In this document: positions 29,021 to 63,713 of the stretch, piece after piece
Layout: every line of letters starts with the position of its first letter
Numbering within the stretch: the first letter of the stretch is position 1
Assembly: GCA_029261555.1 (NCBI GenBank)
Contig: JAJDBB010000039.1
Coordinates: 1-64,000, forward strand
Direction: 5' to 3'
Length of the DNA stretch: 64,000 nt
Source of the DNA: Nitrospinaceae bacterium
GTDB lineage: Bacteria > Nitrospinota > Nitrospinia > Nitrospinales > JACRGP01
The notes under the pieces: model-generated
Seen by the model: the letters and a program-made list of their open reading frames with translations, nothing else
Told to the model about the DNA's origin: nothing
Database searches by the model: none
Program-made: the position numbers and the translations under genes

Positions 29021-29250
29021 GTTGCCGTGAATGAGGTCTGCGGGTAGCTGAAATGTTTTTTAACGCTCTATGGTTATGTTAATTTAAAGGCGGAGAAAAA
29101 CAACCCTCAAAAAGGAATTGTTCTTAACCTCCTCCCCCCCCCTCCGCCACGCTCCGGATAATGAAATAGTTGGCGCTTCCCGGTTTTGCGGTTAAAATAT
29201 TTAAAATCCTTTTATTCGGAAGCCCAGTCATTTTAATCAGCGGGGGAGCC

Positions 29251-31041
29251 ATGAAACCAGTTCAGATATTTGCGCGAGCGCTTTTGACGTTTCTACTTAC
29301 ATTTTTGCTGGCCGGCGTTGCGATTGCCCAAACGGCGCCTTCCCTGTTCATGAATCCCTCGGTTCAAACGGACGCTTCGGGCGTCCATGGCCCTGAAGTG
29401 ACGCGTTCGCGGCCCGTGGATATCAATTTTAATCTGTTGACGCAAGCGGACCCGGCGTCCGGCGCCGTGCCTCTGAACCTGAACCTCTTCGACGACGCGT
29501 CGCTCACAACTCAGATCGATGGGATGAAATCCAAGCCGTCCGGCGCCCGCATTTACACCGGCTCTGTTGAGGGCGGGGGTCCGTTCAGCCAGGCGACTAT
29601 CGTGGTGAACGGCGACACCGTGGCGGGAGATATTTTTGACGGTCACAATCTTTATCAAATCCGCAGTCGAGGGAACGGTTTGCACGAGGTTCGCGAAATC
29701 GACTCGTCACAATTTCCACCGGACAGCGATCCCATCCCGGTTTACTCCCCCCCGACGCAAGGAGACGCACCGGTCGCTAACGCGGACGACGGTTCGGTCA
29801 TCGACGTGCTGGTGGTCTACAGCGACGACGCAAGAGTTCAGGCGGGCGGCACGACCGCCATGGAAACCGAGATCGATCTGGCCGAAACATTAACCAATAC
29901 TTCTTATACCAACAGCGGCGTCGACCATACGATCAACATAGTTGGCAAAACGGAAGTGGCTTATAACGAAACGGGATTCTCCTTCACCCAGGCGTTGAAC
30001 GACGTGACGGGAACTAGCGCCACGCAGGATTTAAGCGCGGTGCGAACGCAACGCGATACGCTGGGCGCCGACCTGGTGGTGTTTCTCGTGAAGGGAGACG
30101 GGAGTTTTTGCGGGCTGGCCTGGTTGATGACCACCGTTTCTTCCACCTTCGAGACCAACGGTTTTTCCGTCACGGCGGAAGGGAGTTGCGCTACGACCAA
30201 CTTCACTTTCGGGCACGAAATCGGGCATAACAGCGGAGCGCGGCACGACCGGACCGCCGACCCGACGGACAACTCTCCGTTTACTTTCAATCATGGGCAC
30301 ATCCTTTCCGGCAACAGCTTTCGCACGATCATGGCGTTGTCGACCGGGACGCGCATTCAGTTCTGGTCCAATCCGGCCGTCAGTTCCTCCGGCATTCCAA
30401 CCGGTATCGCCGAGGGCAACGCCCTTGCCGCCGACAATCAAAAAACGCTGGATCAAACCGCGCTTACGATATCCAATTTTCGCGCCTCCGTTTCAAGCGT
30501 TTCCAATACGGCGATACCGAGCAACCTGTTTACCCGATCCAAAAAACATCGGGTGGTTTCCCCATATTGGCAGGCGGATTTAGGCATCTACACTTTCATC
30601 GCCATTTCCCATCCATCGCTTTCCGGGATGAACTCCCAGATCGGCGTTTCCGTCAATCCGGTGTTGGACGACGTTTCCGCCATCTACGGAACCCCGGCGG
30701 AATTCACCATCCTTTCGGGAGAAACCAAGAGGTTATTCATCACGGGAGCGAATAATACCGTCGCCTCTCTTACCGGCATCACGGGAGCCAGCCTCATCAC
30801 CGGCACCGATACTATCGGTAACCAGGGGCAGTTGATTGTCAACCCGGTGGCCAGCAACCCGGAGAAGTTTTTGGGAATCGCAAGTTCCGCCAGTCGGGGG
30901 TTTCCGGATATCACCGCGCTTTCCTTCTGGGGAGCGGTGGTCATCCCCACAAGCTCCACGGGGTTCGCCATGGAATTTATCGGCGATATGCAGGATTCGC
31001 GCGCGTTTCAACAAGCGGGAAATTTTAGCGGCGTGAATTGA
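29251..31041 (+). CDS. Secreted reprolysin-like zinc metalloprotease with C-terminal SPYWQ/FAMEFIGD domain
   Basis: Signal peptide; FGHEIGHNSGARHD (HExxHxxGxxHD) zinc motif; C-terminal ~165 aa matches the proteins at 56406 and 57105. Start trimmed from 29170 to ATG 29251. Confidence 0.88.
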   Translation: MKPVQIFARALLTFLLTFLLAGVAIAQTAPSLFMNPSVQTDASGVHGPEVTRSRPVDINFNLLTQADPASGAVPLNLNLFDDASLTTQIDGMKSKPSGARIYTGSVEGGGPFSQATIVVNGDTVAGDIFDGHNLYQIRSRGNGLHEVREIDSSQFPPDSDPIPVYSPPTQGDAPVANADDGSVIDVLVVYSDDARVQAGGTTAMETEIDLAETLTNTSYTNSGVDHTINIVGKTEVAYNETGFSFTQALNDVTGTSATQDLSAVRTQRDTLGADLVVFLVKGDGSFCGLAWLMTTVSSTFETNGFSVTAEGSCATTNFTFGHEIGHNSGARHDRTADPTDNSPFTFNHGHILSGNSFRTIMALSTGTRIQFWSNPAVSSSGIPTGIAEGNALAADNQKTLDQTALTISNFRASVSSVSNTAIPSNLFTRSKKHRVVSPYWQADLGIYTFIAISHPSLSGMNSQIGVSVNPVLDDVSAIYGTPAEFTILSGETKRLFITGANNTVASLTGITGASLITGTDTIGNQGQLIVNPVASNPEKFLGIASSASRGFPDITALSFWGAVVIPTSSTGFAMEFIGDMQDSRAFQQAGNFSGVN

Positions 31042-55480: not shown

Positions 55481-56332
55481 TCAGGAAGCCGTTATTTTTT
55501 CCAGCAGGCTTTTATATTTTTCGTTTTCCGGGGCCAGTTTCAGGGCCTTTTGGATCAACTCTCCCGCCTTTTCATTTTCCCCTTTGCCCGCCATAACATC
55601 CGCCCATTGGTAGTAGGCTTCCAGATAATAAGGATTAATAGCCAGGGAATTCTGAAACGACGCGGCGGCCTGATCGGGTTTATTCTGGTCCTTGTAGGTC
55701 ATGCCCAGGTTGAAGTGAGTCAACATACCTTTGGGATTGGCGTCTAGAGAAGCTTGTAAAATCTTTTCCGCTTCCTCGAGTTTTCCAGTCAGGCGAAATA
55801 CGTCCCCAAGGTTATTGAGGTAGGTGGAGTTGCGTTTTTCCTGCTGAATGGCCTTGTTGTAATATTTGGCGGCCTGGTCGTAATTCTTGGAGTCTTTGAA
55901 CAGGTTACCCAGGTTATTATAGGCCTTGGAGTCGTTATCGTCTTCCTTTGTGGCGATCGCGGTTTCCCAGCTCTTTCCAGCGTCGTCCTTGTTGCCCTCC
56001 ATATAATAAGTCATCCCCACGTTGACAAAGGCTTGAACATAGTCGGGTTTAACTGCGAGAGCCTTATTGAAACTATCGCGCGCCTCTGGGTATTTCTTTA
56101 ATCCAAACAGTACCAGGCCTTTTTTGTCGTAGGCCATAAAGTTATTTGGATTGAACTTGACCGCCAGATCGAACTCGTCAAGAGAGTTTTGATAAAGCGA
56201 ATACTGGGCGAATTCGATTCCAAGTTTGTAATGGGAATCGGACTGTGCCGTATCGACCTTGGGTTTTTCGGGACTTTGGGAGCAGGAGACCAAGGAGGCA
56301 AGAATTAACAGATAAGAAAAGATTTGTTTCAT
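55481..56332 (-). CDS. TPR-repeat lipoprotein
   Basis: Lipobox LASLVSCSQ; multiple TPR units (ARDSFNKALAVKPDYVQAFVNVGMTYY etc.). Confidence 0.9.
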   Translation of the reverse strand: MKQIFSYLLILASLVSCSQSPEKPKVDTAQSDSHYKLGIEFAQYSLYQNSLDEFDLAVKFNPNNFMAYDKKGLVLFGLKKYPEARDSFNKALAVKPDYVQAFVNVGMTYYMEGNKDDAGKSWETAIATKEDDNDSKAYNNLGNLFKDSKNYDQAAKYYNKAIQQEKRNSTYLNNLGDVFRLTGKLEEAEKILQASLDANPKGMLTHFNLGMTYKDQNKPDQAAASFQNSLAINPYYLEAYYQWADVMAGKGENEKAGELIQKALKLAPENEKYKSLLEKITAS

Positions 56333-56352: not shown

Positions 56353-56385
56353 AAAAAAAAACGGGGCCAACCGAAGTTGGCCCCG
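56353..56385 (-). terminator. Strong intrinsic terminator downstream of the 56406-57050 gene
   Basis: Minus strand reads CGGGGCCAAC-TTCG-GTTGGCCCCG followed by T9: perfect 10-bp stem with a cUUCGg tetraloop and U tract. Confidence 0.95.
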
Positions 56386-56405
56386 CGAAAATATAAAAAC
56401 TAAAC

Positions 56406-57050
56406 TTAGTTGAGACCTCTAGCGGTACCAGAATTAATGCCGTCAGTCGCACCATATTGTGTCGTGTTACTCAGGATTGCGGAATCAGCCGCGTCTCCAA
56501 TGAACTCCATGGCAAACCCGGAAGCGGTAGACAGGATAACAACCGCGCCCCAGAAATTCAACTGGTTGAGGTTGTTACGCAGAGTCGTCGACCCGGGAAA
56601 GTTAGCGCCAAGAGGCACCGAAGGATTTGCTCCGGTCGTAGAAGAAGCCCGGATAAAGCCAAAAGCATTCGTTCCACTGGTGGTAGCAATAAAACGCAAG
56701 GTGCTGCTAGCTGCGCCAGGAACTCCTGGGGAAATGGTGGTGTTGGTTGCGGAGATAAAAACCCGATGGGTTTCGCCGGCGCTAATTGTGAAAGTTACGC
56801 TGGGATTAGCCGAACCTGCGTCACTTGTTGCGCCAACCGCCGCAAGGGTCAAGCCAATTTTGGAAGAAGCGGTATTCAGCGAGGGATGGGAAATACCAAT
56901 AAAGGTATAAATCCCACCGCTGGTATCAGCCTGGTAATAAGGCGAAATTACCGTGCTATCCCGAGAGGTGTCTCGATCAGCATAAGCATTTTGAGCAACG
57001 ACCATAAGCCCAAAAAGACCTATAATCATTAAAGTAGAAAATCTTTTCAT
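56406..57050 (-). CDS. Small secreted protein, SPYWQ/FAMEFIGD domain family
   Basis: Signal peptide MKRFSTLMIIGLFGLMVVAQNAYA; ISPYYQ...GGIYTFIGISHPSL...FWGAVVILSTASGFAMEFIGD...RGLN; AGGAG RBS upstream of Met at 57050. Confidence 0.9.
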   Translation of the reverse strand: MKRFSTLMIIGLFGLMVVAQNAYADRDTSRDSTVISPYYQADTSGGIYTFIGISHPSLNTASSKIGLTLAAVGATSDAGSANPSVTFTISAGETHRVFISATNTTISPGVPGAASSTLRFIATTSGTNAFGFIRASSTTGANPSVPLGANFPGSTTLRNNLNQLNFWGAVVILSTASGFAMEFIGDAADSAILSNTTQYGATDGINSGTARGLN

Positions 57051-57104
57051 CAGTCGTTCTCCTTCAGATATTCGAAAAATTTTTTCCAATTCGATTTGTC
57101 AAAC

Positions 57105-57707
57105 TTAGTTGATGCCCGAAAAATTACCAGTGGGATCAAACGTACGCGAATCTGCCTGGTCGCCAACAAATTCCATGGCAAAACCGGTGGCGGTGTTCAG
57201 AACCACGATGGCGCCCCAATAGCTCAAGGCGGTGATATCGTACAATTCACAATGGAGGGATCTTTGCGTATTAGGCTCGCAATTATTCAACCCAGCATTC
57301 GTGGCAACTGCAGTAAAGCGCAGGTTACCAACCGTAGAATTGGTCGTGTTGGTGATCAGGAACGTGGCTTCAGAGTTCGTCGTCGTGTTTACGGCAAACT
57401 GCGTCCCAAAAGACGTGGACGGAACGATGAACAATTTTTGAGAAGCGTTGTTGCTAACCGTAAACGTGGTGCTGGTGCTTACTGCGCCACTAGAGTCCAA
57501 AGCTTGCATGTTGACGCCAATCCGGGTGGACATGCCGGAGAGCGAAGGATGACTGACAACTACGAAGGTATAAACTCCACCCTCAGACTGCCAATAAGGA
57601 CTAACAACTGATTTACCATTAGATATGGCGGAAGCGTTCCCAGCAAAGAGCAGAGAGGCCGCTATTACGGTAATGGCTAAAAACCGTTTGAAAATATTTT
57701 TTTTCAT
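57105..57707 (-). CDS. Small secreted protein, SPYWQ/FAMEFIGD domain family
   Basis: Signal peptide MKKNIFKRFLAITVIAASLLFAGNASA; VVSPYWQSEGGVYTFVVVSHPSLSGM...YWGAIVVLNTATGFAMEFVGDQADSRTFDPTGNFSGIN; AAAGGAG RBS. Confidence 0.9.
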   Translation of the reverse strand: MKKNIFKRFLAITVIAASLLFAGNASAISNGKSVVSPYWQSEGGVYTFVVVSHPSLSGMSTRIGVNMQALDSSGAVSTSTTFTVSNNASQKLFIVPSTSFGTQFAVNTTTNSEATFLITNTTNSTVGNLRFTAVATNAGLNNCEPNTQRSLHCELYDITALSYWGAIVVLNTATGFAMEFVGDQADSRTFDPTGNFSGIN

Positions 57708-58596
57708 TTACTTTTCTCCTTTGAATTCTTCTTCAAATATATTCCAAGGATCCTATTGAGATCACATTTACTTCGTTTTTAAAGCCACTCTACAAATACC
57801 GGCTACCCACCTCCCCTCAAAGGCCAAAACTTCTTTTTATTGTTTGAGAATAGTTAATTTTACCACTTATGTTAAAAGCCGTGTTTAAGCAAGCTTTACC
57901 ATACATTTTAATCATTTAAGACAATACATTATATTCAATAGTCAAACCATGTCAAGAAAAAAACCTAATAATAACCCCAAAAATAGGGTCATTATATGGT
58001 CGTTTACCAAAGGATTAGGCAGCCAATTGGAAAAATTGATCAAGATTTCGCGGTAAGTTTAAAGGTTATATTTACGAGCACTGTGTGTGTTTTGGCGGAT
58101 CCCTTTGTATTCTTCGGGGTTCTTGGCAAAGATTTCCTAGGGGAATTTCATGGTGAAAAGCATGTTCCGTTATTATAGCGCAAAAAACTAATATATTTGA
58201 TCATTTTTCTTTTAGGCCAATCCACATTCTAATGAGAGAGGCTCGAATCGGCCTTACGATAGGTTAATTGTCTACCTAGCGGAACCGGAAGCGAATTTCT
58301 TTAGTTAATTTGAATAGATAAGCGGGGTGAGTTTTCCGGGTCCTATTCCGTTTCCGGAACAAAATTACCCTGTTGGTTGGCGCATTTGACTCTCTTCCTG
58401 TTTGATTCTGTTTATTCCGTAAATTTTTCTCCTTCGCTCTCGCGGGGAAAGCTGCCAGTTTGTTGCGGAGCGTTCAGACGGTTGAGTATTTTAGCGAAAT
58501 TTGTTATAGTTTTAGTAAATTTTATTCATTTTATCCATAATTAAGAAGTCTGGAATCTCAATCGAACGTTAATTCAATTTTCAAGGACGCCGCCAA

Positions 58597-59394
58597 ATGC
58601 GCTACTCGGTACAAATATTAAAGGTTGTGGTAAAAAGCCTTCTTCCCCGTCTCTTAGCGCCGCTTATTCTGTCGGTCCCCGTGGCATTGTCGGGTTGCGC
58701 CTCCGACGGTGATTCGCTGGAAAATGCTCTCAAAGCCGAGGCCGCGTACAACGAGGCATTGCAATATCAATCCGTAAACAAAACTGCCGCCGTCGAGGAA
58801 AAAATCCAGGAGGCTATCAAACTTGATCCCCTGGAACCCAGGTATCATCTGAATCTCGGTAAGTTCTATTTTTCGGAAAACAAACTGGATCTCGCCGAAG
58901 GGCAGTTTTTACAGACCCTCCAGTTGGATGACGCCTCTCACGAACCTTACCGCCAACTGGGTCGGCTGTACCTGCAAAAAAAGGACTACTCAACCGCCCT
59001 GAATTTTTTGGGGCAAAGCCTGACCAAAAAACAACTCAAAAATCCTCAGCAAATTCACAATTGGATGGCGCTTTGCTATTACAAGACCGACGATTTCTCC
59101 AACGCTGAAAAGTCCTGGCTCAAAGCCCTTAACTTTCGCGAGAACGAATACATTCGCTTGAATCTGGCCCTGGCCTATCGCGATAACGAGCGTTTCGACG
59201 AGGCGGAGAAGACTCTTAAAAAAGCGGTGATCTACAAACCAGGTTTTGCCCCGGCTCATTATCAACTGGGCTTGCTTTACCTTAAAAAGCAGGATTTTCC
59301 CAAAGCCAAAAAACACTTCAACCGCGTCGTCAGTCTCCAACCCAGCAGTCAGGAAGCTCAGGATTCCCGCAAGTTTCTGGAATTGATGCGGTAA
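58597..59394 (+). CDS. TPR lipoprotein, PilF/PilW-like
   Basis: Lipobox ALSGCASDGDS; TPR units; first gene of the type IV pilus operon. Confidence 0.8.
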   Translation: MRYSVQILKVVVKSLLPRLLAPLILSVPVALSGCASDGDSLENALKAEAAYNEALQYQSVNKTAAVEEKIQEAIKLDPLEPRYHLNLGKFYFSENKLDLAEGQFLQTLQLDDASHEPYRQLGRLYLQKKDYSTALNFLGQSLTKKQLKNPQQIHNWMALCYYKTDDFSNAEKSWLKALNFRENEYIRLNLALAYRDNERFDEAEKTLKKAVIYKPGFAPAHYQLGLLYLKKQDFPKAKKHFNRVVSLQPSSQEAQDSRKFLELMR

Positions 59395-59398
59395 TAAA

Positions 59399-60346
59399 AT
59401 GGACCCGGCAGAAAGCTTTGGACCGTACCTAAAAAATGAACGGGAACTGCGCGGAATCACGCTCGAAGAAATTGCCGCCGCCACCAAAATCCATATTAAA
59501 TATTTGCAGGCCCTGGAAGACGAACGTTACGCCGATCTTCCTGGAGAAGTTTTTGTCAAAGGTTTTCTGCGTTCCTTCGCCAAAGCCATTGGAGCCGACG
59601 GCGACGATATCGTCGCCGCATACGACCAGTTGGCGGACAAGAAATTTCCCGAACGCCCGGTTCCGTCCGCTTTCTCCGAAAACGAAAAAAACCAGTCAAG
59701 TCTCTCGGGCGTTATAATTTGGGGTCTTCTGGTCGTCCTGGCTGCAGCCGGTTATTTTTATTTTAAACCCTTCGCTTCAAAAACGCGCCTTCCTGAAATA
59801 CGGGAGAACCCACAAGCCATACCGGAAGAGCCAAAATTTATTCCCCACGCTCCCTATTCGCCCACGACGGATTTTTCTCCCATTACAATACCGATTCTTC
59901 CACCCGTCCCCGATGCGGGCAGAGAAAATGGAGCCCACGACGGGACCGAAAAAAGCATTCCTAAAAATGAAAAACATGGTATAATTCAACCACCTATGCC
60001 AGTTTCATCGGGTGAAACCGCTGGTGAGGAGGGGCTGGTTTCCGAGGCTCAAACCTCCTCATTGAAAGAGCCGGGAAATGGAGAAGCGATCCGGGAAAAT
60101 CTGGTTTTGGTGGTTGGCGCAAAAACCGCCTCCTGGTTTCATTTGCAGGTGGATAGTTCGGCGGAATACGATTTCATACTTCCCATGGGGACGGAAAAAA
60201 CGTTTCATGGGAAGAAAGAATTGAACCTTACAATAGGAAACCGGGAGGGGGTCCGTTTAACGTTAAACGGCAAATCTCTCGTACCGCCCTCTGGGCGGGA
60301 CAATGTCGTCCGTAACTTTATTATCACCCACAAACTGATTGAGTGA
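59399..60346 (+). CDS. RodZ-like protein (N-terminal HTH, TM helix, C-terminal DUF4115-like domain)
   Basis: LKNERELRGITLEEIAAATKIHIKYLQALEDERYADLPGEVFVKGFLRSFAKAIG; TM VIIWGLLVVLAAAGYFYF; C-term SWFHLQVDSSAEYDFILPMGTEKTF. Confidence 0.88.
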   Translation: MDPAESFGPYLKNERELRGITLEEIAAATKIHIKYLQALEDERYADLPGEVFVKGFLRSFAKAIGADGDDIVAAYDQLADKKFPERPVPSAFSENEKNQSSLSGVIIWGLLVVLAAAGYFYFKPFASKTRLPEIRENPQAIPEEPKFIPHAPYSPTTDFSPITIPILPPVPDAGRENGAHDGTEKSIPKNEKHGIIQPPMPVSSGETAGEEGLVSEAQTSSLKEPGNGEAIRENLVLVVGAKTASWFHLQVDSSAEYDFILPMGTEKTFHGKKELNLTIGNREGVRLTLNGKSLVPPSGRDNVVRNFIITHKLIE

Positions 60347-60349
60347 CTC

Positions 60350-61423
60350 ATGGCTAAAATAGACGCATTTTTCAAATTGATGAACGATCAGGGCGCCTCC
60401 GATCTTCACTTGGTTTCCGGCTCGCAACCCATTCTGCGCGTACACGGCGAAATGGAACGCGTAAAATATAAAGAGTTGGGGAACGACGAACTCAAAGCCA
60501 TGCTCTATGAAATTGCCCCGGAGGACAAGATCAAAGTCTTCGAAGAAACGGGCGACATCGACTTTGCCTACGAGATTCCGAACCTGGCGCGTTACCGGTG
60601 CAACTATTTCCAGCAGAAGTGGGGCGTGGGAGCCGTGTTTCGCGAAATTCCCAGCGAAATCCTGACGGCGGAGCAACTCGGCCTTCCCCCAGTGGTGAAA
60701 AAATTCGCCATGTTGCACAAAGGAATGTGTCTGGTAACCGGTCCGACGGGTAGCGGTAAGTCCACCACTCTGGCGGCGATGATGAACTACGCCAACAAAA
60801 ACCGGAAAGACCATATCCTCACCGTGGAAGACCCTGTGGAATTTGTTCATAAAAGCGAGTCCTGCATCGTCAACCATCGCGAAGTGGGAATGCACACAAA
60901 AAGTTTTTCCACCGCTCTCAGAGGAGCGTTGCGGGAAGATCCGGACATCATCCTGGTCGGCGAAATGCGCGATTTGGAGACCATCGCCCTGGCGCTCGAA
61001 GCCGCGTCCACCGGCCATCTGGTTTTCGGCACTCTGCATACCCAGAGCGCGGGCAAAACCGTCGACCGCGTGATCGACGTTTTCCCCTCCAACCAACAGG
61101 CCCAGATTCGCACCACCTTGTCCGAGGCCCTGAAAGGCGTCGTCGCCCAGAACCTGTTCAGGAGAATCGACAAGAAAGGCCGTATGGCAGTGCTGGAGAT
61201 TCTGGTTGTGACCGCCGCCACGTCAAACCTGATTCGCGAAGGCAAAACTTTCCAAATCCCCTCCGTGATTCAGACCGGGAAAAAATATGGCATGCAATCT
61301 TTGGACGACGCCATTCTGGAAGCCCTGCAAGCTAAAAAAATCAGCGCCGAAGACGCCTACGACAAAGCCATCGTCAAGGACCGTTTTCTGGCATTTCTCA
61401 AAACCCCTCCGGACTTCATGTAG
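60350..61423 (+). CDS. pilT: Type IV pilus twitching motility ATPase, PilT family
   Basis: GASDLHLVSGSQPILRVHGEM, GPTGSGKSTTLAAMMNYANKN, VGEMRDLETIALALEAASTGHLVFGTLHT. Confidence 0.94.
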   Translation: MAKIDAFFKLMNDQGASDLHLVSGSQPILRVHGEMERVKYKELGNDELKAMLYEIAPEDKIKVFEETGDIDFAYEIPNLARYRCNYFQQKWGVGAVFREIPSEILTAEQLGLPPVVKKFAMLHKGMCLVTGPTGSGKSTTLAAMMNYANKNRKDHILTVEDPVEFVHKSESCIVNHREVGMHTKSFSTALRGALREDPDIILVGEMRDLETIALALEAASTGHLVFGTLHTQSAGKTVDRVIDVFPSNQQAQIRTTLSEALKGVVAQNLFRRIDKKGRMAVLEILVVTAATSNLIREGKTFQIPSVIQTGKKYGMQSLDDAILEALQAKKISAEDAYDKAIVKDRFLAFLKTPPDFM

Positions 61424-61425
61424 CC

Positions 61426-62610
61426 ATGAGAAGAGCTGAAATTGATCACATTCTGACCACCATGTTGGAGAGCCTCGGGAATATTTCCGATCTCAACATA
61501 ACAGTCGCCAAACCCTTTCAGGTGGAATCCTCCGGACAACTCGCCGAGGTGCCTATAGAGCCCAAGATGGGGAAACTCACTCCCTTTCAAACAGAAGTCT
61601 TCGCCATGAACCTGATCAACTCCGACCGGCGACTGACGGAGACCCTGGTCTCGTCCGGATCCTGCGACTGCTCCTATTTTCTGGTGGGCAAAGCCCGCTT
61701 TCGCGTGAACATCTTTTCCCAACGAGGCAATTACAGCATCGTGCTTCGAAAGCTGGAAACCCGCATTCCGACTATCGACGAGTTGAACCTTCCGTCCCAG
61801 TTCAACCAGGCGGCGGAAGAAAAGAACGGGATGATCCTGGTCACCGGCGCGACCGGCAGCGGTAAAACGACGACCCTCGCCGCCCTGCTCAACAAAATGA
61901 ACGGCGAAAAGTCTATCCACATCATCACACTGGAAGACCCGGTGGAATTTGTGCATCCGCATCGCAAGGCGACCTTCAACCAAAGAGAGTTGGGCAACGA
62001 TTTCGACTCGTTTTCCACGGGACTCCGCGCCGCTCTGCGGCAGGCTCCAAAAGTCATCCTTGTGGGCGAAATGCGCGACCGCGAAACCGTAGAGATCGGC
62101 ATGAGCGCCGCCGAAACCGGACATCTGGTGCTCAGCACCCTGCACACCAACGATTCGGGATCCACCATCAACCGCATCGTCGGCATGTTTTCCCAGGAAG
62201 AAGAACTGCAAGTTCGCATCCGCCTGGCGGACGTCATCCGCTGGATCATCTGCCAGCGCCTGGTTCCCAAGGTAGGCGGCGGACGGGCCGCGCTTTTGGA
62301 AGTGTTGCACACCAACATGCGCGTGACCGACGTGATCATGAACGGAGAATCCGAAGGCAAAACCTTTTATGAAATCCTCACCAATGGCGACGCCTATGGA
62401 ATGTTCACGTTTGACCAATATATATTGAATATGATGAAAGCCGGGCAGATCACCGAAGAAACCGCCATGGCCTACGCTTCGCGCAAAGCGGTTGTCGGAC
62501 GAGGCATCGACACCATCAAGTCCTCGCGCGGCGAAAAGACGTCCGACATTGACGATTTGGACATGGACGACGCTTACTCCAAACCGGCAAAAAAAATGGG
62601 CCGAAAATAA
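61426..62610 (+). CDS. Second PilT/PilU-family ATPase
   Basis: GATGSGKTTTLAALLNKMN, HIITLEDPVEFVHPH, LVGEMRDRETVEIGMSAAETGHLVLSTLHTNDS; starts 3 bp after pilT stop. Confidence 0.93.
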   Translation: MRRAEIDHILTTMLESLGNISDLNITVAKPFQVESSGQLAEVPIEPKMGKLTPFQTEVFAMNLINSDRRLTETLVSSGSCDCSYFLVGKARFRVNIFSQRGNYSIVLRKLETRIPTIDELNLPSQFNQAAEEKNGMILVTGATGSGKTTTLAALLNKMNGEKSIHIITLEDPVEFVHPHRKATFNQRELGNDFDSFSTGLRAALRQAPKVILVGEMRDRETVEIGMSAAETGHLVLSTLHTNDSGSTINRIVGMFSQEEELQVRIRLADVIRWIICQRLVPKVGGGRAALLEVLHTNMRVTDVIMNGESEGKTFYEILTNGDAYGMFTFDQYILNMMKAGQITEETAMAYASRKAVVGRGIDTIKSSRGEKTSDIDDLDMDDAYSKPAKKMGRK

Positions 62611-62628
62611 CCCAGGAAAGACCGACTC

Positions 62629-63297
62629 ATGCAAATCGCTTGTACCCAATGTAAGAAAGCCTTCAACATCCCCGACGACAAAATACCCAAGGACCAGGCC
62701 TTCAACGTTGGATGCCCCGCTTGCAAGGCTAAAATCAAAGTCGACCAGCATTTGAAAAAGGAAGCTCCCGCTCCTCCTACGCCCGCTCCTGCGGCGGATA
62801 CGGTGGACGCGGCGTCCATGGTCGTCCAGGAAGATTTTTCCGAAGACGACGAATTAAAAATTTATGGCGACGACGACAAAGTCGCGCTGTTGCTGGACTC
62901 CCGGCACAAAGACGTCTGGACTAAATTTCTAGGCGAAAAAGAATATCATGTAGAAGAAGCCCGCAGTCCCGAACACGCCGTCCATAAAATAAAAATCACC
63001 GAATACGATCTGGTGATTCTGGACGAAGCGTACGGCAACCAGCCCTTGGAGAAAAATGCGGCCTACCAAAACCTGCTTGAAATGCCGATGACCACCCGGC
63101 GAAAAATATTCCTGATCATGGTCGGCGGCAATTTTAAAACCATGAACAACATGCAGGCCTTTCAATACAGCGCCAATCTCGTGATCAACGAAAACGATTT
63201 GGACAAACTGCCTCAAGTCATTAAAAAAGCCTTAAACGAACACGAAACTTTTTATAAAGTTTTTAAAGAATCCTTACACGCCTTGGGGAAATCATGA
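62629..63297 (+). CDS. Zinc-ribbon (MJ0042-like) plus pseudo-receiver domain protein
   Basis: MQIACTQCKKAFNIPDDKIPKDQAFNVGCPACKAKIKV; receiver-like VALLLDSRHKDVWTKFLGEKEYHVEEA...YDLVILDEAYG. Confidence 0.75.
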   Translation: MQIACTQCKKAFNIPDDKIPKDQAFNVGCPACKAKIKVDQHLKKEAPAPPTPAPAADTVDAASMVVQEDFSEDDELKIYGDDDKVALLLDSRHKDVWTKFLGEKEYHVEEARSPEHAVHKIKITEYDLVILDEAYGNQPLEKNAAYQNLLEMPMTTRRKIFLIMVGGNFKTMNNMQAFQYSANLVINENDLDKLPQVIKKALNEHETFYKVFKESLHALGKS

Positions 63298-63713
63298 GCT
63301 TAAAAGACACAGCCAACATCCAAAGATATTCCAAGGGAGACGTCATCGTTTCTGAAGGAATCATCAGCAACAACGCCTATATCGTCATGGCGGGTACGGT
63401 TCAGGTCACTAAAAAGATCGAGAAAAAGACCGTGGTCGTCAGCAAATTGAAAGTAGGCGACGTTTTTGGCGAAATGGGCCTCATCTCCCAATCAGTCCGG
63501 AGCGCCAACATCACCGCTATGGAAGACGTTACCATCGGCATCATCGACCGGGAGACCTTTGAAAAACAGTTGGAGGAAATTTCCCCGGACTTACGATCCA
63601 TCGTACTCGCCCTGGTGGAACGGTTGCGGTTCACTACCGAACAACTGTCCAACATTGGCATCCAGTTGCAAAAAACCCGCGACGCCATCCAAAGCTATTC
63701 TCTGAAACAATAA
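63294..63713 (+). CDS. Cyclic nucleotide-binding (CRP-like sensor) domain protein, no DNA-binding domain
   Basis: YSKGDVIVSEGIISNNAYIVMAGTVQVTKK...KVGDVFGEMGLISQSVRSANITAMEDVTIGIIDRETFEKQL. Confidence 0.88.
   Translation: MSLKDTANIQRYSKGDVIVSEGIISNNAYIVMAGTVQVTKKIEKKTVVVSKLKVGDVFGEMGLISQSVRSANITAMEDVTIGIIDRETFEKQLEEISPDLRSIVLALVERLRFTTEQLSNIGIQLQKTRDAIQSYSLKQ

Follow-up and report, generated by a model that had tools for sequence, protein, structure and literature searches.

A predicted beta-sandwich domain of Nitrospinota, found as a standalone A/B pair and at the C-terminus of large secreted proteins

Introduction

It has been reported that T9SS substrates combine a Sec signal with a C-terminal beta-sandwich that is carried by diverse cargo and has conserved last residues (PMC10202324). 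These CTDs (types A, B and C) belong to Bacteroidota. PEP-CTERM, GlyGly-CTERM and LPXTG proteins likewise show homology at the extreme C-terminus of otherwise unrelated proteins. Nitrospinota have been described as the ocean's most abundant known nitrite oxidisers (PMC8026999), and a text search of two Nitrospinota genome papers found essentially no mention of secretion, cell surface or adhesion.

Here we analysed a stretch of 64,000 nucleotides from a Nitrospinaceae bacterium (assembly GCA_029261555.1, contig JAJDBB010000039.1, positions 1 to 64,000 of the forward strand), below called the window. It carried a domain with the T9SS-type layout, namely an N-terminal Sec signal (called by a crude rule) and a C-terminal beta-sandwich on diverse cargo, with conserved last residues. 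In contrast to the T9SS CTDs, the Nitrospinota domain was about 165 aa long, also occurred as a standalone pair, and matched no T9SS CTD model of Pfam or NCBIfam in any of 87 members. It also differed from PEP-CTERM, GlyGly-CTERM and LPXTG in having a folded domain and a free peptide instead; by inspection, the tails ended in SG[VIL]N and contained neither a C-terminal transmembrane helix nor a basic cluster.

Proteins A and B

The domain was first seen in two adjacent genes on the minus strand:

56406..57050, minus strand: protein B, a standalone B-type domain of 214 aa with a Sec signal peptide, ending RGLN
57105..57707, minus strand: protein A, a standalone A-type domain of 200 aa with a Sec signal peptide (aa 1-27), ending FSGIN

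Both genes had a good ribosome-binding site. The ATG of A was preceded by AAGGAGA, and the likely start of B was the ATG at 57050, preceded by AGGAGA, while the mechanical ORF began at a TTG at 57089. By eye, the signal peptides ended between GNASA and ISNG in A and between QNAYA and DRDT in B. The first-pass annotation had described the pair as secreted proteins with shared motifs, no lipobox and G-[IL]-N ends, and the ORFs, signal peptides, motifs and C-termini were all present. The common motifs were [IV]SPY[WY]Q, GG[IV]YTF, SHPSL, [FY]WGA[VI]V and TA[ST]GFAMEF[IV]GD.ADS, followed by the ends SGIN in A and RGLN in B, and no lipobox was found in either protein. A search of the own genome with A matched B at 2.1e-24 and seven other places, the best at 9.5e-43. 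Since orthologues with conserved synteny were also present in many genomes, the similarity between A and B was not due to chance.

The codon adaptation of A (0.64) and B (0.56) was below the window mean (0.72), so very high expression was not supported. We also considered codon usage as a sign of high expression and rejected it: the ribosomal genes were not distinct, which made the measure uninformative or contrary.

Fold and lack of a known family

Neither A nor B matched Pfam, and the sole NCBIfam match was sub-threshold and covered the first 25 residues of A. There was no PDB sequence match to A, and a profile of 87 sequences gave nothing significant in the PDB. Pfam and NCBIfam scans of the 87 relatives also gave nothing significant, no family being matched by more than three members; a named family covering the domain, which had been listed beforehand as grounds for abandoning the idea, was thus not found. 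AlphaFold modelled the copy of the domain from a window metalloprotease (M12B, see below) as a compact nine-strand beta-sandwich (pLDDT 85.9, pTM 0.82) in which nearly all tail residues from 154 to 168 fell below pLDDT 50. The model of A gave the same picture at lower confidence (pLDDT 77). The earlier proposal of a beta-rich, undescribed domain with a conserved exact C-terminus therefore agreed with both the models and the lack of Pfam, NCBIfam and PDB coverage.

Foldseek found no PDB match at E < 1e-3 for either model. The beta-sandwich TM1070 (1nc7) recurred as a weak match (TM-score 0.58-0.65 on the target, E about 0.1), at 6-7% identity and with no match at the sequence level. TM1070 is related to the Anabaena sensory rhodopsin transducer. 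Other weak matches were to agarase and CBM domains. In BFVD, one match at E < 1e-3, to a phage capsid, had a TM-score of 0.39 on the query and was judged uninformative. A phage or plasmid origin was rejected, as tblastn gave no match in phages (with A) or in plasmids (with the M12B domain). No description of the domain was found in the literature. On these comparisons, the family appears to be undescribed, with A and B as its founding pair.

The domain as a C-terminal module

A third copy in the window was the C-terminal module of a metalloprotease, whose ORF spanned 29170-31041 with a likely ATG at 29251:

29251..31041, plus strand: M12B reprolysin-like metalloprotease with a signal peptide, the motif HEIGHNSGARH and the C-terminal domain (Pfam PF13583, 1.8e-16)
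30523..31041, plus strand: A-type domain at the C-terminus of the metalloprotease, ending FSGVN (the AlphaFold model given above)

The catalytic domain was a clear member of the M12B reprolysin-like metalloproteases in Pfam, and the new C-terminal domain set the protein apart from them. The search with A located the domain at nine places in the own genome, A included. At six of them the domain closed a large protein C-terminally (the M12B metalloprotease, two DUF7948/SBBP propeller proteins, a Calx-beta protein, an S8 subtilase, and an SBBP protein truncated by the end of its contig), and one was a contig-end fragment. Related genomes added FG-GAP, NHL and glucose/sorbosone dehydrogenase proteins according to Pfam. 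A genome of the same family (G003, whose loci were from Nitrospina sp. MSP) had the domain at 48 places, and the open frames that contained it reached 5370 aa. Two copies in this genome (L081:5014-6465 and G003:C33:31858-32075) were apparently frame-broken or truncated.

Counting non-identical proteins whose 3' end was complete, 133 of 134 had the domain at the C-terminus. The sole exception (L041, 5836-10359) had it N-terminally, ahead of Calx-beta, carboxypeptidase-regulatory and RHS repeats. By a crude hydrophobicity rule, signal-peptide-like N-termini were present in 34 of 35 A proteins, 28 of 29 B proteins and 43 of 54 fusions, versus 91 of 300 control ORFs; a lipobox cysteine was seen in none of the 105 members with such an N-terminus. 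Judged from sequence comparison, the domain is chiefly a module at the C-terminus of diverse secreted cargo. The first-pass interpretation of an undescribed, secreted, beta-rich domain was upheld, but it had missed both this modular use and the operon described below. A recurrent transporter beside the cargo genes was sought in the 48-copy genome and dismissed, as no non-domain family was present in more than a few loci.

The conserved C-terminal tail

In 42 of 69 fusions, the stop lay 16 residues from the invariant GD. Over 44 A-type and fusion tails with this spacing, position -1 was N in 44, -3 was G in 43, -4 was S in 43, and -5 was F or V in 41, while positions -10 to -6 were variable. 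Together, the AlphaFold models and the alignment placed the conserved end, [FV]SG[VIL]N-COOH, on a disordered tail. A conserved peptide on a predicted flexible tail is the look expected of a recognition peptide.

In four genomes, we compared A with the neighbouring M12B domain. The sandwich bodies were 56-59% identical, and the tails were identical at 18/20, 18/20, 17/20 and 13/20 residues. Over the last 14 codons, 6-10 of the 14 third positions matched. Such tail identity with few matching third positions pointed to selection acting on the peptide and against a recent conversion.

Some A-type tails had (S)GPxAP in place of SGVN. M12B copies away from the A locus ended in GPxAP, as did the operon-locus copies of A in some of the same genomes, a matching that was suggestive only. 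In G000, the pattern FSG[VIL]N-stop recovered seven domain proteins, and the reversed control gave 0 there. The idea that the tail also served as a tag without the domain was rejected, since the extra in-frame matches examined in G000 and G003 were short chance frames.

The A-B operon and its TPR lipoprotein

The surroundings of A and B in the window contained the following elements:

55481..56332, minus strand: TPR lipoprotein with lipobox LVSC, downstream of B, a conserved operon partner
56361..56386, minus strand: strong intrinsic terminator that separates B from the TPR gene, with an 11-bp stem, a UUCG loop and T8
57928..57955, minus strand: perfect sigma70-type promoter upstream of A (TTGACA-16-TATAAT)
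58597..63713, plus strand: divergent conserved neighbours (a PilF-like TPR lipoprotein, RodZ, two PilT-type ATPases, and zinc-ribbon and cNMP-binding proteins)

The order A, B and TPR lipoprotein, divergent from the pilF-like TPR, rodZ and pilT genes, was found in families f1, f2 and f3. Family f4 had the same operon in other surroundings, and family f5 as well as genera g7 and g15 had A and the TPR gene without B. The TPR proteins were 33-54% identical to the window copy, and their lipobox cysteine was invariant. At E < 1e-50, a TPR profile matched 35 of 78 genomes, with a single protein in each. Both TPR and domain were present in 32 genomes, the domain without TPR in 8, TPR without the domain in 3, and neither in 35 (Fisher 3.8e-11, or 5.0e-8 within the order only, uncorrected for phylogeny). 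Since two of the eight domain-positive genomes that missed TPR were more than 90% complete (G026 and G032), the lipoprotein was not obligatory. The exceptions were partly explained by another kind of A-B locus that lacked TPR in four genomes (G026, G032, G040 and G064), and by a TPR gene at a contig edge in G046.

The promoter of A was perfect (12/12) in the window and in loci L015 and L137 and matched at 11/12 in four more loci; in the remaining loci the best match did not exceed chance. All of the 15 operon loci had a terminator hairpin (-21 to -27.5 kcal/mol) after B (or A) and before the TPR gene. This layout would give more A and B than TPR lipoprotein. Upstream of A, positions 57708-58596 formed an AT-rich intergenic region of about 890 bp. 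It contained another hairpin with a T-run at 57995-57968, immediately before the promoter, and no Rfam element was found in it.

Distribution and evolution

The domain was present in 40 of 78 Nitrospinota genomes from five families; the concern that no homologue existed beyond this genome could accordingly be set aside. A pattern scan of GTDB r220 that covered one genome per species and would miss very distant relatives gave 72 loci, nearly all of them titled Nitrospinota. Thus, as far as such scans reach, the family appears almost restricted to this phylum. By the pattern scan, it was found in none of the eight genomes of genus g8 and in neither of the nearly complete genomes G005 and G008. 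Three loci (L017, L020 and L066) carried the domain on contigs titled Gammaproteobacteria, Alphaproteobacteria and Marinimicrobia, which were probably misbinned Nitrospinota.

In a tree of 132 domains, the B type was set apart from the rest at 95/88, and the window B (row L001_A_802) grouped with its orthologues on that side. All cargo fusions were on the A side and none on the B side, where L084, a 5'-open fragment of 211 residues, was a truncated B. L047, a standalone A from family f4, joined the base of the B side, and its place was unsure because its branch was long and adjoined the midpoint root. A and B are the products of an ancient duplication, with the cargo fusions derived from the A side only.

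The window A grouped with fusions of its own genus, and the A of MSP with an MSP fusion. This grouping by lineage suggested that fusion to cargo was probably a repeated event. Moreover, four genomes of 92-96% completeness (G007, G020, G022 and G033) had only two domain proteins, the A/B pair alone, which suggested that the pair had a role without cargo. Therefore, the ancestral role was likely that of the pair, and cargo display would be a derived use.

Possible functions

The fixed C-terminal position on large secreted proteases and adhesin-like proteins suggested that the domain was probably a surface-docking or sorting module. We favour, with moderate confidence, a Nitrospinota module of an undescribed kind, in which A and B would form a small surface structure and the A type would have been co-opted repeatedly. 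In the proposed mechanism, Sec would export A and B, the co-encoded TPR lipoprotein would help them to reach the outer membrane or the cell surface, and they would assemble their structure there. The A-type domain on proteases, propellers, Calx-beta/FG-GAP proteins and sugar dehydrogenases would then target the cargo to a receptor or lattice shared with the pair. The recognised part would be the [FV]SG[VIL]N peptide at the C-terminus, and B, never seen fused, would be the fixed partner. Speaking against this scheme are the eight domain-positive genomes that miss TPR, the N-terminal domain of L041, the A-type tails in (S)GPxAP and the low codon adaptation of A and B. A surface or matrix role of the domain, as proposed in the first pass, would fit this scheme, and A and B are possible appendage subunits.

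A somewhat doubtful alternative was that an undescribed outer-membrane secretion system recognises its substrates by this domain as their CTD, which a translocon would read much as the T9SS CTD is read; A and B would then be accessory or carrier substrates and not a lattice. The Sec signal, soluble beta CTD and conserved last residues on diverse cargo correspond to the T9SS layout (PMC10202324), and the large expansion to 48 copies also agrees with a secretion signal. However, no translocon gene was located beside the A/B pair, several genomes carried A and B alone, without cargo, and SprA of T9SS had no match in 41 genomes, the control genomes likewise being without a match. As for other systems, GspL of T2SS was found in none of three Nitrospinota genomes (G000, G001 and G003) with E. 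coli and Caulobacter as matching controls, a search that a diverged GspL could escape. The T1SS arrangement, a C-terminal signal without an N-terminal signal peptide, was not seen, as most members had signal-peptide-like N-termini.

The domain might instead bind carbohydrates or envelope glycans and retain enzymes at the cell or on particles. C-terminal binding modules are common on secreted hydrolases, and the beta-sandwich fold and the weak Foldseek matches to agarase and CBM domains point the same way. Nevertheless, a conserved disordered C-terminal peptide and a strict terminal position would be unexpected of a CBM, the PDB gave no match at E < 1e-3, and the cargo was not restricted to glycan-active enzymes, which made this explanation unlikely. 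Finally, a strand-exchange fibre in which A and B would be the pilin-like subunits, the cargo tip or lattice adhesins and the C-tail the donor strand is very improbable. Tandem standalone subunits sharing a domain with multidomain proteins, and the conserved disordered tail, would suit such a fibre, but the loci examined showed no recognisable chaperone or usher gene next to the pair and Foldseek gave no convincing fimbrial match.

Extending the docking and sorting module that we favour, we tentatively suggest that Nitrospinota might have an undescribed pathway, parallel to T9SS, that is dedicated to export and attachment at the outer membrane. It would read the domain and its C-terminal SG[VIL]N, with the TPR lipoprotein serving as docking factor, and would equip the cell surface with proteases and adhesin-like proteins of very large size, up to dozens in all. 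A phylum-specific C-terminal module at up to 48 places per genome offers a handle for predicting the Nitrospinota exoproteome, and A, B, the TPR lipoprotein and the M12B protease form a defined test case for finding the machine that reads the domain.

The M12B protease

The domain-bearing M12B protease adjoined the A-B pair in seven of the loci read. A profile of its subfamily gave catalytic-domain matches in 20 genomes of the order, all of them domain-positive, and additionally in G043, a domain-negative genome of another family where the protease ran into other sequence and was cut by the contig end. In T9SS, the protease PorU itself keeps a CTD (PMC10202324). By analogy, one may speculate that the M12B protease could process other cargo.

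An M12B homologue in a domain-less genome (L154:3261-5699) was followed, by eye, by a region like the N-terminal part of C25 (gingipain-like) proteases and was cut by the contig end. Additionally, small standalone secreted proteins homologous to the M12B propeptide region were present at L155:1942-2439, L130:7474-7962 and L154:2460-3191, in the latter two loci directly upstream of the protease. They are possibly inhibitors or chaperones.
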